A stretch of DNA of 37,822 nt, from positions 1 to 37,822 of the IMG/VR virus record IMGVR_UViG_3300042902_000356; one strand, given 5' to 3'. The notes below the pieces were generated by a model. That model was not told the DNA's origin. It saw only the letters and a list, made by a program, of their open reading frames with translations, and made no database searches. Positions 16,306 through 35,080 of this stretch are shown in pieces; the first letter of the stretch is position 1, and each line of letters opens with the position of its first letter. This DNA is from a virus. The translations under genes were made by a program, and so were the position numbers.

Positions 16306-16340
16306 GAAGCGCACTATGCGGGAGGGGGAGAAAAACGATC

Positions 16341-16360
16341 AGGGGGAAACGCTTCCCCCT
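16341..16360 (-). promoter_or_regulatory. Dyad element A, candidate late activator site before the leftward late operon
   Basis: Read on the minus strand the core (16342-16359) is GGGGGAAGCGTTTCCCCC, with arms GGGGGAA/TTCCCCC around GCGT. Exactly 36 nt separate it from the ATG of the protease gene. A sequence CGCATAGT lies further in, with its TAGT at 16316-16313, placing the dyad about 24 nt upstream of a -10-like hexamer, where Mor/C-type activators bind in Mu. The same core with identical spacing occurs before the rightward late operon (29929-29946). Regulatory function is inferred from this duplication. Confidence 0.65.
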
Positions 16361-16481
16361 TAGTGATTGCCGGTTCTTTTTATAGGCTGCCGGTGCAGCT
16401 TGTGCTTGTCAACAACAAGTGGAGACGACCCGAGGAGCCTGATCATGAAACGCTAACTGGAACATCATTGACATATTGCTA

Positions 16482-16512
16482 GCGCCTCAGCCTGACGATG
16501 CGGCTGAGGCGC
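16482..16512 (-). terminator. Terminator-like hairpin after the lysogeny cluster
   Basis: A perfect 11-bp stem, gcgcctcagcc (16482-16492) with ggctgaggcgc (16502-16512) and a 9-nt loop, begins 5 bases past the TAA of the last leftward lysogeny-cluster gene. There is no clear T-run on either side, so it may act with a factor or protect the transcript end. It separates the repressor transcript from the late operon promoter element. Confidence 0.6.
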
Positions 16513-16516
16513 TTCA

Positions 16517-16798
16517 TTATATGAATACCCTGCCATCGCTAACCTCAAGACCTCGCTTGACCAGATCACGTTCTGACAAATTGCGGAATCTGCATCGGCA
16601 GTCTCCATGCAATGGTGGGCGCTTCACTTTCCAAATAGGATCGTCGAAGCGAAAAACCTTTGCGTGCAACCTCCGGCATTCTTCGCAGGTGCATCCATCA
16701 ATAACGGAAAGCCACTGCCAGTAGGGTGCGCGGTGCGTTTCCTTCATGAACCTGGCAAACCGCTCATCCATATATCTGCGGTGCTCTTCGTCTGACAC
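16517..16798 (-). CDS. Stand-alone gpF/SPP1-gp7-like C-terminal domain protein
   Basis: A 93-residue protein that resembles the C-terminal domain of the phage head morphogenesis (Mu F/SPP1 gp7) family. It has CTCEECRRLHAKVF, then a DDPIW motif, then PPLHGDCRCRFR. Cys and His residues suggest a small metal-binding fold. The full-length gpF of this phage is at the far right and shares LHGKVF, DDPIW and NCRCR. Start GTG with AAGGTG eight bases upstream. It is the last gene of the repressor cluster, an unexpected place for a head domain. It may be a remnant or a domain reused for interference with head assembly of other phages. Confidence 0.65.
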   Translation of the reverse strand: MSDEEHRRYMDERFARFMKETHRAPYWQWLSVIDGCTCEECRRLHAKVFRFDDPIWKVKRPPLHGDCRCRFRNLSERDLVKRGLEVSDGRVFI

Positions 16799-16809
16799 GC
16801 TGACGCACC

Positions 16810-17052
16810 TTACGGCTCAGCGAGCCGCTTAATGCCACCGAGGTGCTTCAGGATTGACTTCAGATCATCGATGGCCAGCTTCACTGCATCGATATCGACG
16901 ATAACTCTCTCAGTCGTGTCGATGGGAGCATCCGGGTTTCGTCTGACAGGATTGGAGTATGGTCGTCCCTCTATTGTTGCTCGGAGGGCCTTATACCGCT
17001 CATCTAAAGCGGCGAGTTCTATCTCCATCTTGGCTTTCTTGAATATCGGCAT
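16810..17052 (-). CDS. Hypothetical small helical protein of the lysogeny cluster
   Basis: An 80-residue protein starting PIFKKAKMEIELAALDERYK with AGAGG eight bases before the ATG at 17052; a longer form up to 17139 is possible but overlaps the upstream gene. It is mostly helical, with IDTTERVIVDIDAVKLAIDD and LKSILKHLGGIKRLAEP segments. Codon use is less GC-biased than in the structural genes, like the rest of this cluster. I recognise no domain. Confidence 0.55.
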   Translation of the reverse strand: MPIFKKAKMEIELAALDERYKALRATIEGRPYSNPVRRNPDAPIDTTERVIVDIDAVKLAIDDLKSILKHLGGIKRLAEP

Positions 17053-17101
17053 CACACCATCCTCTATTACACCCGTCGCCCAACCCACACCACGACCATT
17101 C

Positions 17102-17491
17102 CTAAGCCCTGTCTTGAAGAATGAAGTCGATAAGATCAATTCGTTCCCGATAAATCGCTATCGCTTGCGCCTCTTTCCGGCGGGTTGCTTGCAACCAGTA
17201 GGACGGAAAAATGATGCCGCCAAAGGCAATGCCCCACAGGGTCCAATCTGGCGCCACGATCGACACGCGACCAGACAACAGTCCCCATATCATTAATGCC
17301 AGGCCGCCCAGCATCCATAACAAAGGGATATTAATAACGAATCGAATGCGTGACGCCCATAGCTTCTTGGCGCAGCGCGCGCGCTCAAAAATCAGATCAT
17401 CGGTCTGACAGTGCCACAACTTTTCCTCTGCCGCGTTGATGATGTCTCTCCCAGCAACTTGCTCCACTGGACCGTGAAACTCCTGGTTCAT
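17102..17491 (-). CDS. Two-TM membrane protein with AGRD motif, partner of repressor gene
   Basis: A 129-residue protein starting two bases after the repressor stop. The N-terminus QEFHGPVEQVAGRDIINAAE closely matches the C-terminus of the repressor (QNFHGKVGQAAGRDIVN). Two hydrophobic segments follow: FVINIPLLWMLGGLALMIWG (about residues 51-70) and WTLWGIAFGGIIFPSYWL (about 83-100). The C-terminal 30 residues are cytoplasmic-type and charged. The layout suggests an inner membrane protein that recognises, or is recognised by, the same partner as the repressor tail. A superinfection exclusion or signalling role is possible but not shown. Confidence 0.65.
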   Translation of the reverse strand: MNQEFHGPVEQVAGRDIINAAEEKLWHCQTDDLIFERARCAKKLWASRIRFVINIPLLWMLGGLALMIWGLLSGRVSIVAPDWTLWGIAFGGIIFPSYWLQATRRKEAQAIAIYRERIDLIDFILQDRA

Positions 17492-17493
17492 AA

Positions 17494-18009
17494 CTACTCC
17501 TTTTTATTGACGATATCCCTGCCTGCTGCTTGACCAACTTTACCGTGAAAATTCTGCTGCGAGCCGTCAAAGGATGAACTCTGATTTCCTGTTAGAGCTA
17601 GGGCAGCACGCACGAATGATTCGAGAGAATCCACTGATGGGGTGTGCTCGAAGGTATACCCGATCAGCGCCTGCAACTGATCAGGTGAAAACCTTGCCCC
17701 TATCCGCTCCTGCACAGCCAGCACTCGATCTAGGGCTGCCTTCGCCCGCTCTGGGCCGGACATCGCAGCCAGGGCGGCATCCTGCGGGCCGAACTGCCCC
17801 CACCTCACCCCGGTGATGACGTACTGGTAATCGAAGCCGGTTCCGGCTTCCACCAGGGCAGCCAACGCCTCGGCGGGAATTTTGACCCCCTTCTCCCAAG
17901 CAATCACAGACGTTTTTGCAACGCCGCAAATCTCTGCGATCCGCGCATGGCTCAGTTTTAGTCGCTGCCGCTCATCCCTAAATCGCTCGGTTGTTAAATC
18001 GATACCCAT
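17494..18009 (-). CDS. Phage repressor, XRE-type HTH, with C-terminal AGRD motif
   Basis: A 171-residue repressor candidate. Residues about 10-55 form a Cro/C1-type helix-turn-helix (FRDERQRLKLSHARIAEICG, then VAKTSVIAWEKGVKIPAEAL). It lacks the S24 peptidase Ser/Lys domain of lambda-type repressors, so induction would not be by RecA-driven self-cleavage. The middle is helical (AALDRVLAVQERIGARF). The tail carries QNFHGKVGQAAGRDIVN, shared with the next gene. It is transcribed leftward, divergent from the Ner-like gene, in the position of Mu c. The ATG at 18009 has no clear ribosome site, so the transcript may be near-leaderless. Confidence 0.78.
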   Translation of the reverse strand: MGIDLTTERFRDERQRLKLSHARIAEICGVAKTSVIAWEKGVKIPAEALAALVEAGTGFDYQYVITGVRWGQFGPQDAALAAMSGPERAKAALDRVLAVQERIGARFSPDQLQALIGYTFEHTPSVDSLESFVRAALALTGNQSSSFDGSQQNFHGKVGQAAGRDIVNKKE

Positions 18010-18014
18010 ACCTA

Positions 18015-18043
18015 TTGACAGGTAGCGTAAACGCTACCATACT
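18015..18043 (+). promoter_or_regulatory. Early rightward promoter (Pe-like)
   Basis: TTGACA at 18015-18020, a 17-base spacer and CATACT at 18038-18043 make a near-consensus sigma70 promoter pointing at the Ner-like and transposition genes. The spacer is almost entirely occupied by a perfect dyad, so binding there must block RNA polymerase. The leader to the first ATG (18130) contains two small GC hairpins around 18055-18115. Confidence 0.8.
18021..18038. promoter_or_regulatory. Operator dyad in the early promoter spacer
   Basis: GGTAGCGTAAACGCTACC is a perfect 18-base palindrome located between the -35 and -10 boxes and 11 bases upstream of the repressor ATG. This placement would let one dimer control both the early promoter and the leftward repressor transcript. 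I found no second full copy in the window. Binding by the repressor or the Ner-like protein is inferred. Confidence 0.75.
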
Positions 18044-18129
18044 CCCCTCATCCCGCCATTTGGCGGCCCGCGAAGCCAAAAAACGGCGGTCCTGCCAGAC
18101 CGCCACCGTTTTGAAACAGGAGGCCACCC

Positions 18130-18405
18130 ATGCAGTACACGCACTGGGCAGACCGAGCTGCCGCCCTATATAAGGCCGGCTCCTCGCCCTCGCAGGTAGC
18201 CCGCGACCTGGGGCTGAAACAGCCCAACTCGGTCAGCCAGGTGCTCCGCGAGGAAATCGCATCGTACAACATTGCGAGCCATGTGTCGGCCATCACCGGC
18301 ATCCCGCTCAGCCAGCTCTTCCCGTCCGGCCGCTACAACAAGCCGCCCAAGGAAAATATGCGGCGCGCCGCAGATTTACCCACCAAGGGGAGGGCCGTGG
18401 CATGA
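18130..18405 (+). CDS. ner: Ner-like winged/HTH DNA-binding protein
   Basis: A 91-residue protein of the Ner/Nlp family, which tunes early transcription after infection. The ADRAAALYKAGSSPSQVARD segment leads into the recognition helix with QPNSVSQVLR, and the GIPLSQLFPSGRYN ending is the family's conserved C-terminal motif. AGGAGG lies eight bases before the ATG. It is the first rightward gene after the operator, the same place as in Mu. The last 20 residues are a basic tail. Its stop overlaps the next start (ATGA). Confidence 0.85.
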   Translation: MQYTHWADRAAALYKAGSSPSQVARDLGLKQPNSVSQVLREEIASYNIASHVSAITGIPLSQLFPSGRYNKPPKENMRRAADLPTKGRAVA

Positions 18406-18653
18406 GCCCCGTCACCCTCACCCTGACCCAGTCCGAGGTCAGTCTGCTGCTGGACGCGCTGTACGACACATATGACAAGCGGCAGGGTTCCATCGCCCGG
18501 TTCACCGACGACAAGGGTGACATCCTGCCCTACGTCCAGGGCGACGACATCCACAACCTCATCGCCAAGAAGCGCGACGAGATGGCCGTTCTTCGCGGCC
18601 TGCACAACCGCCTGATCTCCGTCTGGCGCCCAAACCAGGAGAACGCCGCATGA
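18402..18653 (+). CDS. Hypothetical early protein
   Basis: An 83-residue protein overlapping its neighbours by 4 nt on both sides, thus part of the early operon. The N-terminal half is amphipathic (LTLTQSEVSLLLDALYDTYD), followed by a YVQGDDIHNLIAKKRDEMAV helix. No domain recognised. Small acidic proteins like this between ner and the transposase are common in Mu-like phages and often affect host physiology. Confidence 0.6.
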   Translation: MSPVTLTLTQSEVSLLLDALYDTYDKRQGSIARFTDDKGDILPYVQGDDIHNLIAKKRDEMAVLRGLHNRLISVWRPNQENAA

Positions 18654-18988
18654 GCCGCTCCAAGTCCGCAAAGGCCTTCTGCATCGACTGCATGGGCGCC
18701 GGCCACAACACCAACACGGCTGACCTCGTGCGCGAATGCCCATCGACCGCGTGCCCGCTCTACCTGGTGCGCCCCTATCAGACCGGAACCGGTCGCCGCT
18801 CCCTCGCCTCGGCCATTCAGGGGCGGTGCTTCATGTGCGTCGGTGGTGATGACGACCCGCGCCCGAGCCCGAAGGTGCGAGTTCGCGATTGCGAGTGCAA
18901 AACCTGCCCCCTGTACCCGGTTCGTCCCTGGCAAAACATCACTGGGCGCGGAAACAGCCGGACGGACATCGACCAGAGCGACACCTGA
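18650..18988 (+). CDS. Early Cys-rich protein with duplicated zinc-binding module
   Basis: A 112-residue protein made of two similar halves. The first has C11/C14, C30/C35 and the motif CPLYLVRPYQTGTG. The second has C60/C63, C81/C83/C86 and CPLYPVRPWQNITG. Each half looks like one four-Cys metal site followed by a conserved C-P-L-Y-x-V-R-P-x-Q-x-x-T-G tail. I know similar single-module phage proteins but no function. It overlaps the previous gene by 4 nt. Confidence 0.65.
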   Translation: MSRSKSAKAFCIDCMGAGHNTNTADLVRECPSTACPLYLVRPYQTGTGRRSLASAIQGRCFMCVGGDDDPRPSPKVRVRDCECKTCPLYPVRPWQNITGRGNSRTDIDQSDT

Positions 18989-19060
18989 CAACGAGGAACC
19001 CCCTTCAAAGTCTTTCAAAAGTTCTTTGACGCGGACAACCAACACCAAGGCAGCGGATCG

Positions 19061-19405
19061 ATGGACAAAACCAAGAATAGTGGCGATGAGCCCACGTTTC
19101 ACAACTACCTTCAGGAGGCGCGGCTGGCCGAGGCGGCAGCTACCCGCCGCACCGCCCTGGCGCGTCGTCATCAACAAACGGATCAGGCCCAGGGAACGGC
19201 CACTCGTCCGGGTCCTCTGAACACAAGTCCCAATACGCAAGCCCGGCCGCTGCCGCCGTGTCACGGTACGACATCCCTGGATGCAGCTCCGGCCGATCCA
19301 GCAGGCGCAGCAGCAGCTCCGCGTACTGAAGGTGCCGAATGGCCGCAAGGGCCAGACGCCCCCCGCGTTGTGGGCTCCTGCCAGTCCCGGCGCTTCGCGC
19401 GCTGA
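19061..19405 (+). CDS. Doubtful early reading frame opposite the frameshifted gene
   Basis: A 114-codon frame starting DKTKNSGDEPTFHNYLQEAR. The first 45 residues look like a plausible soluble helical protein, but from codon 28 on it lies antisense to the better-supported leftward gene at 19140-19590, and its later residues are low-complexity Pro/Ala/Arg. Its ATG has only a weak AAGG 12 bases upstream. Either the real gene ends early through a sequence difference or the frame is fortuitous. Confidence 0.3.
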   Translation: MDKTKNSGDEPTFHNYLQEARLAEAAATRRTALARRHQQTDQAQGTATRPGPLNTSPNTQARPLPPCHGTTSLDAAPADPAGAAAAPRTEGAEWPQGPDAPRVVGSCQSRRFAR

Positions 19406-19590
19406 GCGGGTGCGGCGGACACAAATGAAAGCACGTCATCTTCGTGCGCTGAGACCCACTCGACCCAGCCTCGCAGACCAAGCTGCCGCATGTCCGCCCG
19501 CAGGGCCTCTATCTCGCTGGTGGATAAAGTGGCTTTCACTTCATCCACGAATCCACGTGCTGCTGCTGCGTATTTACGCATGTCTTCCAC
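19140..19590 (-). pseudogene. Leftward gene split by a frame change at a G6 run
   Basis: A GTG start at 19590 is preceded by an excellent GGAGGT and opens a frame beginning EDMRKYAAAARGFVDEVKAT with a GLRGWVEWVSAHEDDVLSFV segment. After about 77 codons it reaches G6 (19359-19364), beyond which it turns into low-complexity sequence. The frame one base further on then becomes protein-like: LALAAIRHLQYAELLLRLLD, then SYRDTAAAAGLAYWDLCSED, ending DPFVDDDAPGRCGG. Joined, they give about 150 residues. The site resembles the tail -2 frameshift site (G-run then CG). It may be a programmed shift, a homopolymer mutation or a sequencing error. No domain recognised. Confidence 0.55.
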
Positions 19591-19689
19591 CGGACACCTC
19601 CAATAAGCAGTCCATCCGCTCCATGAAGCGGCGCCTGGATGAGCGCCGCCGTTCGAATGAAAGTGTAGCGAATCGAGGGGACTCGGTCA

Positions 19690-20160
19690 GTGGCTAAACG
19701 CGGACAAAATTTCTCCAGCATTCAGCCCGATCTTTTCCAGCGACTGGCAGAGCAGGACGCGCTGGAAGCCCTGAGCGCGCAGGACCTGGACATCGGCCCG
19801 GAGCTGATGGGCGCGTTGAACCTCGCCATCCGCGAGGCGAAGAAGCGCGGCCTGTCCCGCGAACGCATCGTCGAGCGGATGAACCTCTGCCTGCCGGATG
19901 CCGAGAAGCCGATCACCCTGCGCCAGCTCAACGCCTGGACGGCGCAATCGAAGGAGTACCACGAATTCCCCGCCCGCTATCTCCCGTCCATGTGCTGGGC
20001 GACGGGCTCCATCGTCCCGCTGCTGGTACTGGCGCAGGCCATCGGCCACGACCTGGTCGATGCCCGTGACCAGGCCGCCCTGGCCCTGGGCCAGAAGCTG
20101 GTGGCGCAGGCCCAACTTTCGCGCGAAGTCATCGCGCTCAAACGTACCCTGGAGGGTTAA
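19690..20160 (+). CDS. Early protein of transposable phages, function unknown
   Basis: A 156-residue protein upstream of the transposase genes. It begins with GTG preceded by GAGGGG nine bases away. Notable segments are FSSIQPDLFQRLAEQDALEA, an IREAKKRGLSRERIVERMNL helix, ITLRQLNAWTAQSKEYHEFP and a GSIVPLLVLAQAIG stretch. The LSRERIVERMN...ITLRQLNAWTA arrangement looks like a helix-turn-helix, so a DNA-binding role near the transposition genes is plausible. I recall similar proteins in B3/D3112-type phages without assigned function. Confidence 0.65.
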   Translation: MAKRGQNFSSIQPDLFQRLAEQDALEALSAQDLDIGPELMGALNLAIREAKKRGLSRERIVERMNLCLPDAEKPITLRQLNAWTAQSKEYHEFPARYLPSMCWATGSIVPLLVLAQAIGHDLVDARDQAALALGQKLVAQAQLSREVIALKRTLEG

Positions 20161-20164
20161 TCAA

Positions 20165-21304
20165 ATGGCCGTCAAGAAAACTGCTGCAAAGCCCGCTGTG
20201 AAGAAAGCCGCCCCGAAGAAGGCCGCGCCCAAGAAGGCGCCTGCCAAGAAGCCCGCGCCGAAGCCGGCCCCGGCAAAGAAGCCCGCCCAGCCGATCGTCG
20301 GCGAGCTGGTGACCGCCGCCAGCGCTACAACGCTGCCGGCAACCGTCGACAACACCATCCACGACGATGAGCTGCGCGTCATCGCGCAGCGCGTTCTCGC
20401 CATAAAGAACGATACCGATTGGGATATGCCGCTGTCTGATAACCGCCCGCTGAGCGGCAAGGAGTTAGATGCATGGCTCGACAAGAAGGACGACTTGGCC
20501 GCGGTCGGCATGATCGAGCGCGGCGTAGGATACATGCTCAAAAAACGAGAGCTTGGGCACGGCGCATTTGTTGGGTGGGCGAACGATACTGGGCGCAGCT
20601 ATAGGGCGATCGCTGAAACGATGAAGGTTGCGCAGATGTTTATACATCTGTCAGAACCAAACTGGCGCCGGGCCGCCAGTTTGCCCCAGAGGAAACAGGC
20701 GGCCTTAGCGAGCGCGCCCATTCAGTTGCTCAACGAGCTATTCGACTCTGGCGCTCTTGAGCACGCCGCGCAAATGAGTCGTGAAGAACTCCGCGAACTG
20801 ATCGCCCTGCGCAAGGAAGTGGAGAAACAGGACGAACGCGAGCACCACCTCAACGAGGTGATCCACAAACAGGACGAAGAGCTGCGCAAGCGCCGCGCCC
20901 TGCCCGAGGCGAACCAGCACGCCGCCGAACTGCGCCGCGCCGTCCTGGACGAAACCGAGGCGCTGCGCGCCAACGCCCACACCCTGCAGCTGGTGATGGA
21001 CAGGCTCGGCCTGCTGCCGGCGGACCTGCCGCAGGCCGAGCTGGATGCCATCGTGCATCCGCTGATGTATGCGCTCCAGGGCCTGCACGCCACCGCCGCC
21101 TCGCTGCTCGACTATGGCCACGAGCGCTGCGTCGGGTTCCATCGCGACGTGGGCATCTTGCCGCCGCAGCTCAGCGATGACGAAGTCCGGCGCGCCGTCG
21201 AGGTTCACGAGGACTTCATGGACGCCGCCACCACCCGCCGCAACAACCGCCAGATGGACCTGTCCGTCGCCAAGCACGCCCGTAAGACCAAGGCCGCGGC
21301 ATAA
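20165..21304 (+). CDS. DUF3102-like early protein with histone H1-like Lys/Ala/Pro tail
   Basis: A 379-residue protein. Residues 1-42 are almost only Lys, Ala and Pro in KKAAPKKAAPKKAP-type repeats, like bacterial histone H1/AlgP tails that bind DNA nonspecifically. Residues about 95-200 (GMIERGVGYMLKKRELGHGA, FVGWANDTGRSYRAIAETMK) look like a DUF3102-type domain. A long coiled coil follows (EELRELIALRKEVEKQDERE), then a helical C-terminal half ending in a basic tail. It lies directly before the transposase and could help condense or present phage DNA for transposition. That role is inferred. Confidence 0.68.
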   Translation: MAVKKTAAKPAVKKAAPKKAAPKKAPAKKPAPKPAPAKKPAQPIVGELVTAASATTLPATVDNTIHDDELRVIAQRVLAIKNDTDWDMPLSDNRPLSGKELDAWLDKKDDLAAVGMIERGVGYMLKKRELGHGAFVGWANDTGRSYRAIAETMKVAQMFIHLSEPNWRRAASLPQRKQAALASAPIQLLNELFDSGALEHAAQMSREELRELIALRKEVEKQDEREHHLNEVIHKQDEELRKRRALPEANQHAAELRRAVLDETEALRANAHTLQLVMDRLGLLPADLPQAELDAIVHPLMYALQGLHATAASLLDYGHERCVGFHRDVGILPPQLSDDEVRRAVEVHEDFMDAATTRRNNRQMDLSVAKHARKTKAAA

Positions 21305-21315
21305 GGAGCACGACG

Positions 21316-23025
21316 ATGGGACAGCAGCTCAAGCAAATAACCAAAGCGCTGGCACAGGCCGAGCCTGATGAGAACGCGGTGACCGGCCCCAAGAAGCGCA
21401 AGGTCGCCGCACTGGTGGCGGTGATGCGCTACGTGCGTAAGCTGCGCGTCGCGCTGGGCGGCGACAGCCTGGACCCGGCCATCGATATTTTTTCAAGACA
21501 GTTCGCTGACGGCCTGCTGCCGGGGGCCGTTGTCTCCGCCCTGACCGTGCTGCGCCCGAAGAAGGTGGACTGCCCGCACCGCGCGACGCTCTACCGCTGG
21601 GATGAGAAGTACGCCAAGCACCTGCAAGGGCGCGAGGCGGAGGCGGCGCCGCAGCACCAGGGACGGAAGCGCAAAGACTACGGCTGGGAGCTGCGCGCCC
21701 TGGCGCTGTACCACATCCCGAGCAAGCCGACCTCCGGCGCCGTGGCCGAGCAGCTGCGGGACGAAGGGTTCGACAGCGCCACCAACGACCGCGTGCGCCG
21801 CTTCCTTCAGACGATGCCGGCGACGCTCGGCCCGCAGAGCCCGCACCGGGTCGGCAAGCACTACCACGACCTCAACCGTGGCCGCTACGTGCGCCGCAAC
21901 ACCGACTGCCTGGATGTCGGCGAGGTCTACACAATGGACGGCCACACGGTGGACGTCTATCTGGCACACCCGATCTCCGGCGGCATCTGGCGGCCGGAGC
22001 TGACGGTAGTGGAGTGCGTGAAGTCGCGTTTCATACCCGGCTGGTACCTGTCAGAGGCGGAGTCCACGCATAGCTCCATGCTGGCGCTGTCGCACGCCAT
22101 GCTGGGACACGATCACGTCCCGGCCTGGATGCACGTCGACAACGGCTCCGGCTTCAAGGCCAAGGCCATGAGCGATGAGGCAGTCGGATTCTACGCCCGC
22201 TTCTCCATTCAGCCGATGTTCTCGATCCCCGGCAACTCGAAAGGCCGCGGCCACATCGAGCGCCTGTTCCGCACCATCCGTGACAAACACGACAAGCTAT
22301 TCATGGGCGGGATGTTCTACTGCGGCGACGACATGGCACCGGAGATCAACCGCCGCCTGCACGACCAGCTCAAGCAGGGCAAGCGCGCGCTGCCGACCCT
22401 GGCGCAGTACCGCGACTCTCTGGCGCGCTTCCTTGAGCGTTACTGCAACACCAAGCACAGCGCGCACGGGCGCACGCCGGCCGATGTGTGGGACGAGCTG
22501 GAGCGCGTTCCGCTGGAGGTTCCGGCCGACGCCACCGTGCGCGAACGCACCACCCGCACCATCCGCCGCGCCGCCATCGAGCTGCACAAACGCGTGTACA
22601 GCCACACCGACCTGGCGCTCTACAACGACCGTGTGCTGCCGGTGGAGTACTCGATCCACGACGACGCCCATGTGTACGTCTACGACGAACAGGATCGCCT
22701 GGTGTGCGTCGCCGAGCTGGTGACCAAGGCCGACTACCTGCCGGCCTCGCGCCTGGAAGAGCAGCGCCAGCGCCGCAAGGAAGGCCAGCTCAAGCGCCTG
22801 CAGAAGAAGGTGGCCGAGGTGGAGGCGCAGCACGGCAACGCCATCACCCACGACCAGCAGATGGAACAGATCGCCGCGCTCCTGGAGCCGGCGCGCCCGG
22901 CGCCTGCCCTGGAGCAGGCCGAAGGCGAAACCCTGGATTTGCTCTCGCCCCTGTTGCGGGGCCGGGCAAAAGAAAAGGGAGACAGCCCGCTACGGCTGTC
23001 CCCCTTGGATATCGACGGGGAGTAG
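21316..23025 (+). CDS. A: DDE transposase, MuA-like
   Basis: A 569-residue MuA-type transposase catalysing strand transfer for integration and replicative transposition. The N-terminal part contains DNA-end-binding helical domains (LGGDSLDPAIDIFSRQFADG, RATLYRWDEKYAKHL). The catalytic core has D208 in YTMDGHTVDVYL, D275 in WMHVDNGSGFKAK and E315 in GRGHIERLFRT; the 66-residue gap between the Asp residues equals that of MuA (D269/D336). A beta-barrel domain follows (DLALYNDRVLPVEYSIHD), then a Lys/Glu-rich coiled tail for MuB contact. It is shorter than MuA (663 residues), with no internal stop. Confidence 0.95.
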   Translation: MGQQLKQITKALAQAEPDENAVTGPKKRKVAALVAVMRYVRKLRVALGGDSLDPAIDIFSRQFADGLLPGAVVSALTVLRPKKVDCPHRATLYRWDEKYAKHLQGREAEAAPQHQGRKRKDYGWELRALALYHIPSKPTSGAVAEQLRDEGFDSATNDRVRRFLQTMPATLGPQSPHRVGKHYHDLNRGRYVRRNTDCLDVGEVYTMDGHTVDVYLAHPISGGIWRPELTVVECVKSRFIPGWYLSEAESTHSSMLALSHAMLGHDHVPAWMHVDNGSGFKAKAMSDEAVGFYARFSIQPMFSIPGNSKGRGHIERLFRTIRDKHDKLFMGGMFYCGDDMAPEINRRLHDQLKQGKRALPTLAQYRDSLARFLERYCNTKHSAHGRTPADVWDELERVPLEVPADATVRERTTRTIRRAAIELHKRVYSHTDLALYNDRVLPVEYSIHDDAHVYVYDEQDRLVCVAELVTKADYLPASRLEEQRQRRKEGQLKRLQKKVAEVEAQHGNAITHDQQMEQIAALLEPARPAPALEQAEGETLDLLSPLLRGRAKEKGDSPLRLSPLDIDGE

Positions 23026-23066
23026 AGGCCCCGCCTGAATCAATACAACGATAAGGAGTATAGCGC

Positions 23067-24137: not shown

Positions 24138-24138
24138 G

Positions 24139-24417
24139 ATGGACCTTGATTACGAAACTGCGGCGGCGTGTCCACAAAATCCTGAACTCTGGGATATGAC
24201 GGTTCGCGCATTGCGTTACGCGCTGGAGATCACTATCGCCTGGTACAACGAACAGGGTGACCTCACCGATACAACCGTTATCACTGCGATGGGTAAGCCG
24301 CATATCGCCTGGTATGACGCCTATCGCGTAGCGCGGAGCTTGGCACGCGGGCGACCGGTTCAGGTGAAGGAGAAGAGATATCAGCGCACGACCAACGGAA
24401 TTGAGGTGATCGCATGA
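24139..24417 (+). CDS. Hypothetical early protein
   Basis: A 92-residue protein one base after MuB. It contains LWDMTVRALRYALEITIAWY followed by TTVITAMGKPHIAWYDAYRV, and ends with a basic QVKEKRYQRTTNGIEVIA strand. Its codons are less GC-biased than those of MuB. No motif recognised. The next gene overlaps it by 4 nt. Confidence 0.6.
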   Translation: MDLDYETAAACPQNPELWDMTVRALRYALEITIAWYNEQGDLTDTTVITAMGKPHIAWYDAYRVARSLARGRPVQVKEKRYQRTTNGIEVIA

Positions 24418-24728
24418 CCACTTACGCTGACGAATACATCGAGCACTGGGGCGGCGTCTTCACCGCCCGCGACCTGTACCACCAGCACGGTGTCCGCTTC
24501 GACACGTTCCTGCTGGCGCCGCAGGAGATCCTGGACTCCATCGCCCAGCTGCCGCCGCGTGTGGCTCCGCTGCTGCCGGCGCAGGCCGCCGCCATGCACC
24601 GCGACCTGGAGGAAGCGCTGGTGCCGAATGGGGCCCAGATGCGCGAGCGCGGCTACGTGCAGCGCATGCGCCACCACGCCTATGCCGTGTCGACCCTGCA
24701 CCACAACAACCGGAGGGCGCAGGTATGA
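24414..24728 (+). CDS. Hypothetical early protein
   Basis: A 104-residue soluble protein beginning TTYADEYIEHWGGVFTARDL, with a long Ala/Pro-rich middle (RVAPLLPAQAAAMHRDLEEA) and a His/Arg-rich end. It overlaps its neighbours by 4 nt on both sides. No domain recognised; similar genes follow MuB in several B3-type phages. Confidence 0.6.
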   Translation: MTTYADEYIEHWGGVFTARDLYHQHGVRFDTFLLAPQEILDSIAQLPPRVAPLLPAQAAAMHRDLEEALVPNGAQMRERGYVQRMRHHAYAVSTLHHNNRRAQV

Positions 24729-24943
24729 ACGCTACCGGACTGTTGCCCGTGCTTTGTCAGCACACCCAGGAATCGCCCCTGTGTGATCCCAACACCGCCT
24801 GGCATTGCGTCGGTTACGGGCTGCCTCCATGCGAGGCGGCAGCCAAGCGCAAGGCCGACCTGGAATACAGGACGGCTCAGGGCGAGATCGTTCCGCTGGG
24901 CGTCGAGTCGGCACCTCCGGGGGTGGGTCATGGTGGCGACTGA
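24725..24943 (+). CDS. Small four-Cys early protein
   Basis: A 72-residue protein with cysteines at 11, 20, 28 and 36, plus His13 and His27, compatible with one metal site. The C-terminal half is a helix (CEAAAKRKADLEYRTAQGEI) and a glycine-rich end. It overlaps the previous gene by 4 nt and the next by 14 nt. Function unknown. Confidence 0.5.
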   Translation: MNATGLLPVLCQHTQESPLCDPNTAWHCVGYGLPPCEAAAKRKADLEYRTAQGEIVPLGVESAPPGVGHGGD

Positions 24944-25181
24944 TGTGCAGCTGCTGCACCACCTCGACGATGACCCGGCGCTGCTGGTGTTCCTTTCGCC
25001 GCGCCGCTTCGAGCTGATGACGCCTGCCGCTGCCTGCAAGCTGCGTGACCAGCTGCAGGCTGCTCTCGCATCCGTAGGATGGGTAGAGCGCGGCGAAACC
25101 CATCAATGCCAACCGGAGCAGCTCACGCTCATCGATGGCGACGGGGATCTGCCTTGGATATTGCAGAGGCAGATGTCATGA
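24930..25181 (+). CDS. Hypothetical early protein carrying an in-frame REP-like palindrome
   Basis: An 83-residue protein from the ATG at 24930, starting VATDVQLLHHLDDDPALLVF with a TPAAACKLRDQLQAALAS helix. Residues 49-58 (VGWVERGETH) are encoded by a REP-like palindrome, which suggests the last 35 residues arose by insertion of that element. The tail LTLIDGDGDLPWILQRQMS follows. Stop overlaps the next start (ATGA). No domain recognised. Confidence 0.55.
   Translation: MVATDVQLLHHLDDDPALLVFLSPRRFELMTPAAACKLRDQLQAALASVGWVERGETHQCQPEQLTLIDGDGDLPWILQRQMS
25074..25104 (+). repeat. REP-like palindrome, copy 1
   Basis: gtaggatgggt-agagcgcggcga-aacccatc: a GTAG head, a gatgggt/acccatc 7-bp stem (25078-25084 with 25098-25104) and a loop. 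This is the classic layout of repetitive palindromes in proteobacterial chromosomes. GTA is in frame with the host gene. Confidence 0.75.
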
Positions 25182-25402
25182 GGCCCGCACAGCGCACCCC
25201 TTCCGTCGCCTGGTGCTGGCGCGGCGTCGGCTTCAGCGTCGGCCTGGGCGGGCTCACCGGGCTGTGGGGCGAGCCCTCCGGCCTGTTCCGCGTCACGCAG
25301 TACCTGGTGTCGCTGCACCTCACCTCATCGTTGGGCTTCAACGCCGTAGTTCTGGTGCTCGGTCCGCTGCGCCTCTCGGTCGGCTGGAAGGTTCGTGCAT
25401 GA
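25178..25402 (+). CDS. Small probable membrane protein of the early region
   Basis: A 74-residue protein. VAWCWRGVGFSVGLGGLTGL and a later LGFNAVVLVLGPLRLSVGW are hydrophobic and could make one or two membrane segments, linked by a GEPSGLFRVTQYLVSLHL stretch. Coupled by 4-nt overlaps on both sides. Function unknown. Confidence 0.5.
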   Translation: MRPAQRTPSVAWCWRGVGFSVGLGGLTGLWGEPSGLFRVTQYLVSLHLTSSLGFNAVVLVLGPLRLSVGWKVRA

Positions 25403-25944
25403 GCGTGCATGGCGTCTGTCCCGAGTGCGGCGGTGTCCGCCCTATCGCCGAGTACCTGTCCGAGGCGCGGGCGCGCCAGGCGCTGCACGCGGCGCTGAAG
25501 CTCGACCCGCGCCTCGCCGATCCGGTGCTGGAGTATCTGGCGCTGTTCGCGCCGGCGGGCCGCAAGCTGGCCAGCAACAAGCTGGTGCGCGTGCTCTCCG
25601 AGCTGGGGGAGCTGGTGGCCTCCGGCCAGGTGGAACACAAGAAGGTGATCCACCCCGCGCCGGTGGACTACTGGCGCATGGGCCTGGAGGAAATGCTCGC
25701 CGCACGCGAGCGGCTGACGCTGCCGCTCAGCAACCACAACTACCTGCGTGCCGTCGTCGCCGGCATCGCCACCAAGGCCGGCGGCCGGCAGGAGCAGAAG
25801 CAGGAAGAGCAGCTGCGCAATCCATCGCGCCGCGTGGGTCACCAGGGCGGCCCGGTGCAGGTGTTGGAGAAGGCAAAGCCGGTAGCACCGCCGCCGGACT
25901 GGAAAAATCAGGCACTGAACGGAGGGAACAAAACCGATGCGTGA
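25399..25944 (+). CDS. Early protein with N-terminal CxxC and helical body
   Basis: A 181-residue protein. C7/C10 in VCPECGG begin a half zinc-ribbon, followed by EARARQALHAALKLDPRLAD and APAGRKLASNKLVRVLSELG helices, a VIHPAPVDYWRMGLEEML segment and a Gln/Glu-rich C-terminus. I recall homologues in B3/D3112-type phages at the same place without known function. It overlaps both neighbours. Confidence 0.62.
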   Translation: MSVHGVCPECGGVRPIAEYLSEARARQALHAALKLDPRLADPVLEYLALFAPAGRKLASNKLVRVLSELGELVASGQVEHKKVIHPAPVDYWRMGLEEMLAARERLTLPLSNHNYLRAVVAGIATKAGGRQEQKQEEQLRNPSRRVGHQGGPVQVLEKAKPVAPPPDWKNQALNGGNKTDA

Positions 25945-26332
25945 AATAGACCGGGCGGAATTCAAGGCGCGGGTGCGCGAAATCCTCGCGTGCCATGTCG
26001 GGCCGGATGAGTGCGTTTCGATGTACCGGCTCTATCAGGTCATCACCGGCCACCCGATCATCCCGATGCGCAAGGTCAACCAGACGCGTCTGATCCGTTC
26101 GGTCATCGCCGAGCTGCAGGAGGACGGCGAACCCATCGTCCACAAGTCCGGACAGGAGGGCGGCTACTACACCGCCGAAACGAAGGCGGAACTCGAACAG
26201 GAAGCCGCCTGGTTCCGCAAGCGAGCCCTGTCCGCCTTCCGCCGCGAAAAGATGCTGCGGCGAATCAGCGACGAAGAGCTGCTGCGCCAGTACGCCCTGG
26301 AACTCAATGTAGGTCGGGTTAGCGAAGCGTAA
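25937..26332 (+). CDS. Early protein whose stop codon comes from a REP-like palindrome
   Basis: A 131-residue protein with a winged-helix-looking first part (CVSMYRLYQVITGHPIIPMR, then LIRSVIAELQEDGEPIV and SGQEGGYYTAE) and a long basic helix (AAWFRKRALSAFRREKMLRR). The last residues, NVGRVSEA, and the TAA are encoded by a REP-like palindrome (26309-26339), so the original C-terminus was probably altered by it. DNA binding is plausible. Confidence 0.62.
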   Translation: MREIDRAEFKARVREILACHVGPDECVSMYRLYQVITGHPIIPMRKVNQTRLIRSVIAELQEDGEPIVHKSGQEGGYYTAETKAELEQEAAWFRKRALSAFRREKMLRRISDEELLRQYALELNVGRVSEA

Positions 26333-26339
26333 CCCGACG
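26309..26339 (+). repeat. REP-like palindrome, copy 2
   Basis: gtag-gtcgggtt-agcgaagcgt-aacccgac: GTAG head and an 8-bp stem (26313-26320 with 26331-26338). This form is a widespread chromosomal repeat in gamma- and betaproteobacteria. It supplies the final codons and stop of the upstream gene. Confidence 0.82.
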
Positions 26340-26363
26340 AATCAAACCGAGGAGAAGCACCCC

Positions 26364-26894
26364 ATGAACATGCAACAAATCGAACAACTCTCCGCCATCT
26401 ACGCCACCGAGCGCGATGCGCTCGCCGCCCTGGTGACGGACATGAACGACGCCATCGAGCAGGTCAAACGCGCCCGCCTGGCCGCCATCAAGACGGCTGT
26501 GCAGAAGGCCCGCCAAGCGCAGGCCGATCTCAAGGCCGCCATCGAGGACGGCAAGAGCCTGTTCGACAAGCCGCGCACCCGCGTGCTGCACGGCGTCAAG
26601 GTCGGCCTCACCAAGCAGCGCGGCTCCGTTGAATTCGACGACGAAGAAAAGGTCATCGCCCGTATCCGCGCCCAGCTCCCGGAAGACCAGGTGGAGCTGC
26701 TGGTGCGCGTCAAGGAATCGGTCTACAAGCAAGCCGTCTACGACCTCAAGGCCGCCGATCTCAAACGCCTCGGCATCCGCATCAGCGCCGACTGCGACGC
26801 TGTGGTGATCAAGTCCGTCGACAGCGAGGTGGACAAGCTGGTCAGCGCGCTGCTGGCCGAGGACGCCGAAGAGGCGATGGAGAACGCGGCATGA
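26364..26894 (+). CDS. gam: Host-nuclease inhibitor protein Gam-like
   Basis: A 176-residue Mu Gam homologue, a Ku-like dimer that shields DNA ends from exonucleases. An N-terminal coiled coil (IEQLSAIYATERDALAALVT, then EQVKRARLAAIKTAVQKARQ) is followed by the family beta core with RTRVLHGVKVGLTKQRGSVE and the ending DCDAVVIKSVDSEVDKLV. GAGGAG precedes the ATG. It lies between transposition genes and gemA, the usual place. Confidence 0.9.
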   Translation: MNMQQIEQLSAIYATERDALAALVTDMNDAIEQVKRARLAAIKTAVQKARQAQADLKAAIEDGKSLFDKPRTRVLHGVKVGLTKQRGSVEFDDEEKVIARIRAQLPEDQVELLVRVKESVYKQAVYDLKAADLKRLGIRISADCDAVVIKSVDSEVDKLVSALLAEDAEEAMENAA

Positions 26895-27274
26895 GTGGCG
26901 TCACCTGTCCGAAGCACCAGACCGGCGGCGGGCCGTGCTACTGCCAGCAGATGCACACCTGCCGCTGTGGCGCCACGGTGGAGCGCAGCAAGACGGTTGA
27001 GTACCGGACCAAGGGCTGGCAGCCGCGCCGCGTATGCAAGTCCTGCCACATCGAAGGCAATCTGCCGAAGAGCTGGAAATGTGTCGGAGAGGATGCAGTC
27101 TCCAACCCGTTCGTCAATATCGATGGCGTGGGCGCTGTGGACGGGGCCAGTCGCCTGATGATGGTGGATCGGTTCGACATAGACCAGTGCCGAGCAGGAC
27201 TGACTGTGGCCGGGCTGCAGAAGGCCGTTGAGAAGAAGCTCCTGTCACGCATCCGCAAGCTAGGTAGGGCGTAG
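26891..27274 (+). CDS. Cys-rich zinc-ribbon early protein
   Basis: A 127-residue protein with many cysteines: C6, C16, C18, then C24/C26 in CRCG paired with C49/C52 in RRVCKSCH, a likely zinc ribbon. The C-terminal half (LMMVDRFDIDQCRAGLTVAG, then a basic helix) has no recognisable motif. It overlaps gam by 4 nt. Function unknown. Confidence 0.58.
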   Translation: MSGVTCPKHQTGGGPCYCQQMHTCRCGATVERSKTVEYRTKGWQPRRVCKSCHIEGNLPKSWKCVGEDAVSNPFVNIDGVGAVDGASRLMMVDRFDIDQCRAGLTVAGLQKAVEKKLLSRIRKLGRA

Positions 27275-27277
27275 TTG

Positions 27278-27472
27278 ATGAAACTCCAGATCAACAGCAA
27301 TGGGGCCTGGCGCAACGTCCTCGACTATGTCCAGGAATACGACGTGGCCGTGCGAGTTCACGCCGCGAACCTCGCCGCGCTCTCCGGCGACAAGCTCCGA
27401 GTGTTGCATGACGACGGTAAGCCGGCCGCGTACTGGAAGAGGGAAACCGGCTGGGAAGAGTGGACACGCTGA
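27278..27472 (+). CDS. Hypothetical small early protein
   Basis: A 64-residue protein starting KLQINSNGAWRNVLDYVQEY, with DVAVRVHAANLAALSGDKLR and a C-terminal KPAAYWKRETGWEEWTR. It looks like a small beta/alpha domain. Stop overlaps the gemA ATG (TGATG). No family recognised. Confidence 0.55.
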   Translation: MKLQINSNGAWRNVLDYVQEYDVAVRVHAANLAALSGDKLRVLHDDGKPAAYWKRETGWEEWTR

Positions 27473-27933
27473 TGAAAGAAACCCCACGCCAGGACGCCTA
27501 CCGTCACCATCTCTACCGTGTGCTCATGGCGGGCAAGCGCTGCCTGAGCATGGAAGAGGAAGACTATCGGAAAATTCTGGAGCGCAACGGCGCGAGCCTG
27601 ATCGGCGACAAGTACTCCGCCACCACCATGACCATCGACGGCCTCAAGGCGGCCATCGACGAAATGCGCGCCAAGGGATTCACGCCCCAGGGCAAGACGC
27701 TCGCCACCGCCGCCGCCTGGCGCAAGCCGCGCATCGCCAAGATCACCGCCATCTGGTGCGCGCTGGCCGACGCCGGTGTGGTGAAGAACCGCGGCGAAGC
27801 GGCGATGGTGAAGTTCTGCGCGCGCATCACCGGCAAGGCCCGGCTGGAATGGGCGGAAAGCGAAGACCTCAACAACTGCATCCAGGCCCTGCGTGCCTGG
27901 GCCAAGAACACTGGCGTGAAGCTGGAAGAGTGA
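27472..27933 (+). CDS. gemA: GemA/Mu gp16-like regulatory protein
   Basis: A 153-residue GemA (DUF1018) protein, which in Mu alters host gene expression and DNA supercoiling. Family features are HHLYRVLMAGKRCLSMEEED, RKILERNGASLIGDKYSATT and QGKTLATAAAWRKPRIAKI. The ATG at 27472 overlaps the preceding stop; a GTG at 27460 is less likely. It directly precedes the Mor-like gene, the order seen in Mu (gp16, Mor). Confidence 0.88.
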   Translation: MKETPRQDAYRHHLYRVLMAGKRCLSMEEEDYRKILERNGASLIGDKYSATTMTIDGLKAAIDEMRAKGFTPQGKTLATAAAWRKPRIAKITAIWCALADAGVVKNRGEAAMVKFCARITGKARLEWAESEDLNNCIQALRAWAKNTGVKLEE

Positions 27934-28346
27934 TGACCGAGCCGGCCGCCGATCTCGACCTGGTGAACCCCGACCTGCTGCCACCGCAGGTCCGGGAGCT
28001 GGTGCGCCTGATCGGTCTGCCGCAGACCCTCGCCCTGCTCAAGGCCCGCGGCGGCCGCCCCCTGGCCGTCGCCGTCCACCCGGAACAATGCGTCACGTTG
28101 CGCGGCATCCTATCACGCGAAGCACTCGCCGCCCTCTGCGAGGAACACGGCGGCACCACCCTCGACCTGCCCAAGGCCGACAAGGTCAACCTGCAGCTGC
28201 GCAACCACTACATCGCCGAGGCCCGCGCCGCCGGCGCTAAGAGCGGCCGCCAGCTCGCCGCCGAGCTGGGCCTCACCTGGCGGCAGATAAAATACATCAG
28301 CGCCGAAGCGCGCAAGACAGACGACAACCAGGGAGACCTGTTCTGA
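27933..28346 (+). CDS. Mor-family transcription activator
   Basis: A 137-residue protein from an ATG overlapping the gemA stop (TGATG). LLPPQVRELVRLIGLPQTLA is the Mor/C-type dimerisation region, GILSREALAALCEEHGGTTL follows, and the C-terminus holds a helix-turn-helix (SGRQLAAELGLTWRQIKYI). Mor and C bind dyads just upstream of -10 elements that lack a -35. It is the only Mor/C-type protein in the window, so it is the prime candidate to act at the paired dyads at 16342 and 29929. Confidence 0.85.
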   Translation: MTEPAADLDLVNPDLLPPQVRELVRLIGLPQTLALLKARGGRPLAVAVHPEQCVTLRGILSREALAALCEEHGGTTLDLPKADKVNLQLRNHYIAEARAAGAKSGRQLAAELGLTWRQIKYISAEARKTDDNQGDLF

Positions 28347-28885
28347 TGACGCAAGACACCACACTCCAGGAACTGGCGACCCAGTGCCTTGACGAAGCCG
28401 GCGGCGACAGGTATCGCGCCGCAGAACAACTCTACCAGCGACTCGACGACAAGCAAAAGGCGGAGCTGCTGGAGCGCTACCTGGATAAGGCCATCTGGGA
28501 TTTGCTTCGCAGCCTGGGAAAGCGGTCGCAGCCGCGGCGCAGCGTCGACAATCCGGCGCCCGTAGCAGCCTCTTCGAGCGGCGGAAGTAACAATGCAAGC
28601 AAGGGTCCGGCGGCCCCGGTACTGGTGGTCGGCCTGATGCGCCTTGCCAGGGCCAACCTGGACAATTTGCTGGACGCCTTCCGCCTCAGCACAGGGGCTT
28701 TGCTGGGCGACGCCAGCCGCGTCGAGCTGCTCGAAGAGGCGACGCGCGAACACAGCCAGGCCGGGGCGCACATCGAGCGCTCTATGTTCCTGCGCGCCGT
28801 GGCCGCCCGCGTCGGCTCTGCCGCCAGGGCGCGCGTGGAGCTGCGCCGCCTGGCGATATCTACCATCAGCGAGGTGGCGGCATGA
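28346..28885 (+). CDS. Hypothetical helical early/middle protein
   Basis: A 179-residue protein starting TQDTTLQELATQCLDEAGGD, with a YLDKAIWDLLRSLGKRSQPR region, a low-complexity Ser/Ala/Gly linker (about residues 70-90) and helical repeats (LARANLDNLLDAFRLSTGAL). It overlaps the activator gene and the next gene. No domain recognised. Its partner may be the IS110-type-domain protein that follows. Confidence 0.58.
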   Translation: MTQDTTLQELATQCLDEAGGDRYRAAEQLYQRLDDKQKAELLERYLDKAIWDLLRSLGKRSQPRRSVDNPAPVAASSSGGSNNASKGPAAPVLVVGLMRLARANLDNLLDAFRLSTGALLGDASRVELLEEATREHSQAGAHIERSMFLRAVAARVGSAARARVELRRLAISTISEVAA

Positions 28886-29904
28886 GCCTGCAGCTGCTCC
28901 TGGCGGAAATCCGCGAGACCCACCGCATGCACCAGGATCTGCTGCGCGCCGAGCTGCGCCTCGGCCAGCAGATCGCTGCAATCGAACGTCGCATCGAGCG
29001 CGCCAATGAAGGGTTGATCCCCAGCGAAAGAAGTGCCGCTCACAGCGACCGCGAGGCCGAGGAAGTCGTGCTCCCCAATAGAAGTCTGCCTCGCGTTAAA
29101 CAGGAAGGCCGCGGCCTAAGAAGAACTGTCACCCAGTTGACGCCTGCTTCGACCTTCCCCCAATCAAGCTCCGACAAAGGCAGCGCCGATGCTGGAGCCC
29201 CTATTGATCTGCAAGGCCATTCAACGCCCGTCGACCAAAACATGATTGCCGAGCAGATCCCCACCCAAGCCCCCTGCGTCGCCCCGGATTTGACTGACGC
29301 CCAATGGAACTCTGGTGATGCAGGGGCATCTATCGGCGACGGAGACCAAGGCCAAAGTGGCGACCTAGGAAATGTTGTCTCCGCCGCCACCCTTCCGCTC
29401 CAGGAAGCCGCTGCCGGCATCCGCAAGCATCAGCTCGCGCTGCGCCGGCGGATGGAGAAGCTGGCAAAGCAGCTGCCCGTCACTCCGTTCATTGAAAGCA
29501 TCTGCGGCTTTGGCTGGTTCGGCGCGGCCCAGATCGTCGGCGAGACCGGCGACCTGGCGGCCTACGCCAACCCGGCCAAGGTGTGGAAGCGCATGGGTCT
29601 GGCCGTCATCGATGGCCGGTCGCAGCGCCGCGTCGCCGGCGCCGCCGCCCTGGATCACGGCTACGCGCCGCACCGCCGCACCATCATGCACGTCATCGGC
29701 GAGTCGCTGATCAAGAAGCAGAACGTCTACCGAGAGCTGTACGTGGCGCGCAAGGAGTACGAAACAACCAAGGCGCCGGACCTCACCAAAATGCAGTGGC
29801 ACCGCCGCGCGATGCGCTACGCCGAGAAGCGCCTGCTGCGCGACCTCTGGCGCGCCTGGCGTGACGCCACCCTTGACAGCGGCACCACGACACCCGCAAG
29901 CTAA
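28882..29904 (+). CDS. IS110-type transposase C-terminal (Tnp_20) domain protein without catalytic domain
   Basis: A 340-residue protein. Residues 1-45 are a coiled coil. Residues about 50-175 are a low-complexity Ser/Asp/Gly/Gln region with AGA codons unlike the neighbours. Residues 180-310 resemble the helix-hairpin-helix C-terminal domain of IS116/IS110/IS902 transposases: FIESICGFGWFGAAQIVGET, KVWKRMGLAVIDG, then a HGYAPHRRTIMHVIGESLIK segment. The RuvC-like DEDD domain of real IS110 enzymes is absent, so it is unlikely to transpose alone. Such domains occur in phages with unknown role; DNA-structure binding is the reasonable guess. It is the last gene before the late promoter element. 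Confidence 0.7.
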   Translation: MSLQLLLAEIRETHRMHQDLLRAELRLGQQIAAIERRIERANEGLIPSERSAAHSDREAEEVVLPNRSLPRVKQEGRGLRRTVTQLTPASTFPQSSSDKGSADAGAPIDLQGHSTPVDQNMIAEQIPTQAPCVAPDLTDAQWNSGDAGASIGDGDQGQSGDLGNVVSAATLPLQEAAAGIRKHQLALRRRMEKLAKQLPVTPFIESICGFGWFGAAQIVGETGDLAAYANPAKVWKRMGLAVIDGRSQRRVAGAAALDHGYAPHRRTIMHVIGESLIKKQNVYRELYVARKEYETTKAPDLTKMQWHRRAMRYAEKRLLRDLWRAWRDATLDSGTTTPAS

Positions 29905-29923
29905 TTCCGCCCACATCCTTGTC

Positions 29924-29951
29924 GGTCGGGGGGAAGCGTTTCCCCCTGACC
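29924..29951 (+). promoter_or_regulatory. Dyad element B, candidate late activator site before the lysis/packaging operon
   Basis: The core (29929-29946) is GGGGGAAGCGTTTCCCCC, identical to element A read in its own direction, and is extended here by GGTC/GACC outer arms. Again 36 nt separate the core from the first ATG (29983). A hexamer TAGTCT lies at 29971-29976, ending exactly 6 nt before the ATG, so a transcript from it would be leaderless. It also sits 24 nt after an early-operon stop, and the hairpin could end early transcription as well. Confidence 0.65.
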
Positions 29952-29982
29952 ACCTCACCCCCCGGCCGCCTAGTCTGGCGGC

Positions 29983-30234
29983 ATGTCCCAGACAGCACCC
30001 ACCGAAAAACGCCCCCGGCACTACGCCGCCGAAATCATCGCGCTCAAGTCGAGTGAGGGTCGCGCCTCTGCGCGCGCTCGCGTGCCGGCGGTCTTCCGCG
30101 CCTGGGTGGATGACCTGGTCGAGGATTACCACTGGCGCCGCAGCCAGCCGCCTGCCGCTGGTGTAGGGTGCGCACCGCGCACCAACAGCGCCGGCCATGC
30201 CGCTCTCGCAGGACTCAAGGAGGCGCTGGCATGA
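29983..30234 (+). CDS. First gene of rightward late operon, small basic protein
   Basis: An 83-residue protein: SQTAPTEKRPRHYAAEIIAL then SSEGRASARARVPAVFRAWV and DDLVEDYHWRRS. The HYAxEI...RxxARVPxxxRxWV pattern occurs in small proteins of several Mu-like phages, function unknown. The C-terminal 24 residues start in a REP-like palindrome (30163-30183), so the tail is probably acquired. The ATG has no Shine-Dalgarno; see element B. Its stop overlaps the amidase start by 4 nt. Confidence 0.6.
   Translation: MSQTAPTEKRPRHYAAEIIALKSSEGRASARARVPAVFRAWVDDLVEDYHWRRSQPPAAGVGCAPRTNSAGHAALAGLKEALA
30163..30183 (+). repeat. REP-like palindrome, copy 3
   Basis: gtag-ggtgcgc-acc-gcgcacc: GTAG head with a 7-bp stem (30167-30173 with 30177-30183) and a tight 3-nt loop. 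GTA is again the first base triplet of a codon in the surrounding gene, as in copies 1 and 2. Confidence 0.68.
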
Positions 30235-35079: not shown

Positions 35080-35080
35080 C

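Follow-up and report, generated by a model that had tools for sequence, protein, structure and literature searches.

The window analyzed here, i.e., the whole 37,822-base stretch of IMG/VR record IMGVR_UViG_3300042902_000356, represents a Mu-like phage in which the early region is central and two late operons face outward; the elements in question are two copies of one 18-base dyad standing upstream of these operons. According to family matches, the leftward late operon encodes the protease, major capsid protein, tail sheath and tape measure, and the rightward one encodes the amidase, terminase and portal, which agrees with the late operons described in the first-pass annotation of this DNA. 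A gene of the Mor/C family of activators starts at 27933, as was also claimed there. The features that matter most were as follows.

16342..16359, minus strand: dyad 1, candidate activator site of the leftward head/tail operon, putative counterpart of Mu PI.
16313..16318, minus strand: −10-like hexamer CATAGT, 32 nt from the dyad centre, ending 7 nt before the ATG.
16303..16305, minus strand: ATG of the protease gene, predicted to lie at or within 1 nt of the inferred +1.
15139..16305, minus strand: head maturation protease (Mu I-like), gene 1 of the leftward operon (phrog_976, E = 1.2e-72).
29929..29946, plus strand: dyad 2, candidate activator site of the rightward lysis/packaging operon, putative counterpart of Mu Plys.
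29971..29976, plus strand: −10-like hexamer TAGTCT, 33 nt from the dyad centre, ending 6 nt before the ATG.
29983..30234, plus strand: first open reading frame (ORF) of the lysis operon, 83 amino acids, ATG at the predicted +1 (weak phrog_3648 match, E = 0.0021).
27933..28346, plus strand: Mor/C-family late transcription activator, 137 amino acids, proposed ligand of both dyads (phrog_836, E = 5.6e-25).

The 18-mer GGGGGAAGCGTTTCCCCC was found in the window only twice without mismatches, at 16342–16359 on the minus strand and at 29929–29946 on the plus strand, and no third copy was present anywhere in the window at three or fewer mismatches; in 100 dinucleotide shuffles of the entire window, the number of such matches averaged 0.03 and did not exceed 1. 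The sequence is a near-perfect dyad, with 16 of 18 positions self-complementary (the reverse complement differs at 2 of 18), and the full palindrome around dyad 1 is AGGGGGAAGCGTTTCCCCCT (16341–16360). Both the occurrence of exactly two copies and the identity beyond the core had been noted in the first-pass annotation and were reproduced (TGA follows the core at each copy), as was the spacing of exactly 36 nt between the core and the ATG (16305 and 29983). The TAGT blocks described near the start codons, CGCATAGT and CGCCTAGT, are both present; however, they are less exact than had been claimed, since they are one base out of register (TAGT begins 25 and 24 nt after the core, respectively). 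In a search by geometry only, in which dyads with at least 5 of 6 outer pairs and an ATG 43–47 nt from the centre were collected and pairs of dyads were ranked by similarity, the reported pair took first place in the window (16/16), with a runner-up of 13. A promoter scan revealed no sigma70 consensus promoter match at either dyad site.

Palindromes of this kind are typical of operators, and two products of the window carry helix-turn-helix (HTH) domains.

17494-18009: HTH repressor (HTH domain found).
18130-18405: Ner-like protein (HTH domain found).

Consequently, the dyads might be regarded as operators at which the repressor, the Ner-like protein or a host protein silences the late operons in the lysogen. 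This is very unlikely: the lack of a third copy within three mismatches in the whole window means that there is none at the early control region, the position of the dyads relative to the −10-like hexamer matches that of the Mu Mor site, and similar sites recur in phages that were retrieved through their Mor protein. Between the repressor and the Ner-like gene, a sigma70 promoter match was found at 18015–18043 on the plus strand (TTGACA, 17, CATACT), which may be an early promoter or may be due to chance, shuffles yielding 2.2 such matches per region.

Dyad 1 and the T-run next to it (16341–16360, minus strand) also have a terminator-like score, in the orientation that faces the repressor operon. 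The stretch 16360–16341 combines a stem with GATCGTTTTT, and the scan found 16 terminator-like sites in the region vs 11.8 in shuffles, so that a terminator hairpin, for example that of the repressor operon reading toward 16342, could be proposed as the function of the dyad itself. However, no T-run follows the 29929 copy, nor does one directly follow the TJ1-type dyads considered below, and the two copies share their primary sequence and their distance to the ATG, neither of which a terminator needs; such an explanation is thus extremely improbable. Dyad 1 may nevertheless double as a terminator at 16342.

The affiliation of the 27933–28346 protein with the Mor/C family rests on PHROG and profile matches. 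Its Pfam Mor score was 22.4 bits, which is below the curated cutoff of 24.9; in the Mor alignment, all four members matched Pfam Mor at E ≤ 1 (best, 2.4e-14). When the Mor profile was compared with PDB, the C proteins 9vw8 and 9l0x were matched at 4e-4, as against 0.6 for Mor (1rr7); an unrelated CAP repeat entry, none of whose stretches passed, headed the list. The AlphaFold monomer model had a predicted local distance difference test (pLDDT) score of 73 and a predicted template modelling (pTM) score of 0.52; a Foldseek search with this model gave no match at E ≤ 0.001, and among the 50 rows shown there was no Mor or C entry and there were many HTH proteins. A six-frame search of the window with a minimum ORF length of 60 codons gave a single match to the Mor profile. 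It should be noted that searches with single proteins (protease, Mor) gave almost only the same phage or nothing, and the Mor multiple alignment was needed to reach relatives.

In these relatives, the dyads and downstream signals follow a common geometry, namely, dyad centre, 31–33 nt, weak −10 of the form xAxxxT, 5–7 nt, ATG. When 23 genomes or records were searched by sequence only, with no more than one mismatch to GGTGAARYRTTTCACC allowed, 11 were found to contain dyads, 38 in total (G008 is nearly a repeat of Curvibacter phage TJ1). In 38/38 of these dyads, one strand had the hexamer at a distance of exactly 31 nt from the centre; 29 also had an ATG 5–7 nt past the hexamer, and the other nine had the hexamer alone. 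The dyad-linked starts numbered 45 distinct cases, selected for an ATG at 42–47 nt and in many instances derived from related phages; three further rows of the initial 48, each either a lysis site read on the other strand or a spurious ORF of short length, had been left out (G007 8915 and G028 4533, plus strand; G013 28486, minus strand). The hexamer ended 6–7 nt before the ATG in 44 of the 45 and 5 nt before it in the last, compared with 7/98 control genes. The gap between dyad centre and hexamer was 31 nt in TJ1/KS10-type phages, 32 nt in G006-type phages, and 32–33 nt in the window and G001. Because this gap is constant within a group, while that between hexamer and ATG ranges from 5 to 7 nt, the hexamer appears to be keyed to the dyad and can be read as the −10 of a dyad-dependent promoter. 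With six nt from the hexamer to the inferred +1, the dyad centre would lie at −44.5 and −45.5 in the window and at −43.5 in TJ1/KS10-type phages.

By the same six-nt rule, the A of the ATG would be +1 or +2 (−1 in the single case with 5 nt), i.e., the start codon of the late operons would coincide with the predicted transcription start or lie within 1 nt of it, a point absent from the first-pass annotation. In leaderless bacterial promoters, the −10 likewise stands a few nt upstream of the ATG. Shine–Dalgarno (SD) tetramers at −20 to −5 were found in none of the 45 linked starts, both window starts included, whereas 64 of the 98 control starts had them; the median duplex energy was −1.7 vs −5.8 kcal/mol, and the corresponding p = 1.3e-16 overstates the evidence, since linked starts in related phages are not independent. 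The protease N-terminus, MSKRTQHDFKGLQDW, resembles those of relatives and is not preceded by an SD. The late mRNAs are therefore probably leaderless. The prediction suggests corrected start codons for three genes. For protease gp28 of Burkholderia phage KS10 (L014), the annotation uses TTG 18120, which precedes the dyad (centre 18132), while ATG 18177, 44 nt past the centre, opens the N-terminus common to relatives; for two TJ1 (L013) proteins, the annotated starts 18593 and 25586 precede the predicted ATGs 18620 and 25622, respectively. At the third linked start of TJ1 (31284), annotation and prediction coincide.

The same activator promoters could instead produce a short untranslated leader, with transcription starting some nt upstream of the ATG and weak or SD-independent initiation. 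Such leaders have precedents, since the C-driven lys and I messages of Mu have leaders of approximately 20–30 nt with SD-like stretches and most of those at TJ1-like and KS10-like lysis promoters also carry SD-like stretches. This variant is nonetheless unlikely given that, in 45/45 linked starts, the conserved hexamer, whose spacing from the dyad is nearly invariant, ends 5–7 nt before the ATG and that not one of these starts has an SD tetramer. At the lysis promoters of the 11 TJ1-like and KS10-like genomes examined, the predicted +1 is located within the rising arm of a potential hairpin, which could form in read-through RNA (−18.8 to −26.0 kcal/mol) and could not in late RNA (−0.3 to −7.0). 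The hairpin is strong in TJ1 (8202, minus strand), KS10 (7607, minus strand) and nine IMG/VR relatives and T-tailed in several. It would be folded in transcripts running on from the repressor operon and not in late RNA, and is possibly a terminator that late transcripts skip.

Half-sites differ between the groups of phages (GGGGAA, CGGGAA, GGTGAA, CCGGC, CGGAA and CTGAA), and the geometry is kept. A check named beforehand was the presence of a paired core in phages sharing the Mor-like protein, and such sites were found: G001 (45% GC, Mor 39% identical in the alignment) carries an identical 20-mer, GGCGGGAAACATTTCCCGCC, twice, before the same two operons (16/16 in the geometry-only search, next pair 11), and TJ1 (Mor 35% identical) carries GGTGAA-N4-TTCACC four times, before the lysis, protease, tail assembly chaperone and baseplate wedge genes. 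The sequence TGTGAAATGGTTCACC precedes the protease gene in KS10, G011, G012, G013 and G016, and GGCCGGC-N4-GTCGGCC precedes the endolysin and tape measure genes in G006/G009 and relatives (families checked on G006). In a decoy test on 9 of the 23 phage genomes, in which the ATG window of 43–46 nt was slid to 25 offsets, the top pairs of the window, G001, TJ1, G010, G006 and G009 exceeded all 25 decoys; the number of decoys reaching the top pair was 1 of 25 in G022, 23 in KS10 and 24 in G017.

The exact core was found in six stretches of the viral_contigs collection, namely, two contigs of metagenome 3300044482 matching the window phage and four unrelated-looking contigs, three of which share one sequence while the fourth differs again; the geometry was absent from these four by eye. 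The sequence GGTGAARYGTTTCACC gave 98 stretches in viral_contigs (80 loci listed), many of which are probably due to chance by a rough estimate from the collection size; thus, only coherent contigs were followed. The order that includes G002 (Pandoraea), represented by 399 genomes, gave seven exact GGTGAARYGTTTCACC matches, too few for a useful cross-tabulation of Mor and site.

A Mor-profile match was found in 40 of 399 genomes of one order, and 31 held-out loci around Mor-profile genes (one match per locus) were searched by geometry only. With the hexamer required and a similarity of at least 12/16, a pair was present in 4/31 loci, compared with a mean of 0.22 and a maximum of 2/31 for 50 decoy offsets. 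The pairs in G270, G073 and G087b, i.e., in 3 of the 31 loci, precede an endolysin or amidase gene and a head maturation protease gene, and the operators recovered, CGGAA-N4-TTCCG or CTGAA-N4-TTCAG, had not been supplied to the search. When only the ATG was required, three loci exceeded all 25 decoys; one of these is G265, whose pair looks spurious, and later inspection revealed one complete CGGAA-type site in this genome.

A number of observations weigh against the leaderless, activator-dependent reading of these sites. In the geometry-only search, 27 of the 31 held-out loci had no pair, so the cassette belongs to only part of the Mor family; the two-site late regulon under Mor proposed in the first-pass annotation is supported by the paired sites of Mor-bearing relatives, and as a rule it does not extend to all phages of the Mor family. 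The fourth held-out pair (G159) has one start opening a 376-amino-acid ORF and another opening an ORF of only 15. The lysis promoters of TJ1-like and KS10-like phages (11 genomes) have the dyad and the hexamer at a gap of 31 nt and retain a leader; in KS10, the two sites are too degenerate for the pair search, with an ATG at only one, and a third GGCCGGC-type copy in L025 has its ATG at 40 nt. G015 (13.8 kb), G017 and G019 gave no convincing pair. Mor was detectable in 8 of 20 records retrieved by the GGTGAA pattern, which need not all be Mu-like, the other 12 being fragments of at most 16 kb. The agreement with TATAAT is 4/6 for CATAGT and only 3/6 for TAGTCT, and the pattern xAxxxT was picked after examples had been seen; besides the selection of the linked starts mentioned above, the control starts were taken from annotation, which favours SD sequences.

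With these points considered, we assign a probability of roughly 0.7 to the reading that the two dyads are Mor/C activator sites of PI- and Plys-like late promoters whose mRNAs start leaderless at the first ATG. Position, gene content and co-occurrence suggest that the Mor-type protein encoded at 27933, in the early block, binds the dyads. It would bind each as a dimer, centred approximately 44–45 bp upstream of the start, and would substitute for an apparently missing −35, allowing the host sigma70 polymerase to use the weak −10 (CATAGT, TAGTCT). Transcription would then start at the first ATG or one nucleotide away from it, and both late mRNAs would be leaderless at their beginning. It also seems likely, with somewhat less assurance, that some Mu-like phages form a group in which a single Mor-type activator sets the transcription start and the translation start alike through a rigid cassette of dyad, weak −10 and AUG, the late operons (capsid protease, tail genes, some endolysins) being leaderless and the operator diverging with the activator while the geometry is kept. 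If so, a phage late programme would rely on leaderless translation, and phage messages could gain an advantage from being leaderless late in infection, if 30S subunits or initiation factors are then in short supply. The single-genome observation would thereby become a rule for locating late promoters of some Mu-like phages without the operator sequence being known, and natural activator/operator pairs would be supplied for work on Mor/C specificity.

The remaining late genes of the window were placed by family matches as follows.

13275..14390, minus strand: major head protein, leftward late operon (phrog_1005, E = 1.5e-87).
30231..30725, plus strand: amidase/endolysin, lysis operon (phrog_822, E = 6.7e-43; start codon picked by eye).
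33346..35079, plus strand: terminase large subunit, lysis/packaging operon (phrog_38, E = 4.6e-91).
35033..36562, plus strand: portal protein, lysis/packaging operon (phrog_113, E = 5.5e-107).

Family matches also identified the Mu transposase C-terminal domain, the AAA transposition protein, GemA and Gam. Between the Mor gene and the lysis promoter, the ORF at 28882–29904 on the plus strand carries a transposase domain of the IS110/IS116 type (Pfam Transposase_20, phrog_4285), and a short ORF at 16517–16798 on the minus strand, between the repressor and protease operons, matches minor head/DNA pilot proteins (phrog_220) over an internal portion of these.

Neither these operators nor late genes of Mu-like phages with leaderless starts were found described in the literature searched, which included few subscription papers; the one paper found in which both leaderless and Mu-like occur deals with a regulator of a CRISPR-associated transposon. 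In the part of the KS10 paper that was available, palindromes are not mentioned and a promoter is mentioned once. The layout of the window is like that of KS10 and TJ1, with outward late operons, an early region between them, a Mor-like gene, and sites before the protease and lysis genes; it differs in that the early region is inverted, the Mor gene being on the lysis side in the window and on the protease side in KS10/TJ1, and in that KS10/TJ1 have the half-site GTGAA and a lysis promoter with a leader. Mu Mor recognizes a 16-bp element with two 5-bp inverted repeats centred at −43.5, upstream of a sigma70 −10 without a −35 (PMC4390567), and Mu C drives the lysis and protease (I) operons from a site that overlaps the −35 region or lies upstream of it, with non-consensus −10s (PMC4461284). 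The positions of the dyads, −44.5 and −45.5 in the window and −43.5 in TJ1/KS10-type phages relative to the inferred +1, are thus close to that at Mu Pm, although Pm serves the middle operon, whereas the window has its two copies, and TJ1 its four, in front of late operons for structural and lysis genes. As at the C-activated Plys and PI (also PP and Pmom), one activator is proposed for the lysis and protease operons; unlike Mu, which has Mor and a separate C, the window has one detected Mor/C protein, its operators differ in sequence from those of the Mu late promoters, and its starts have no SD, in contrast to the leadered lys and I of Mu (Mu hexamers picked by eye). In the hexamer 6–7 nt before the ATG and the lack of an SD, the candidate promoters of the window resemble bacterial leaderless promoters; they differ from these in being coupled, on late operons, to the putative dyad of a phage activator.

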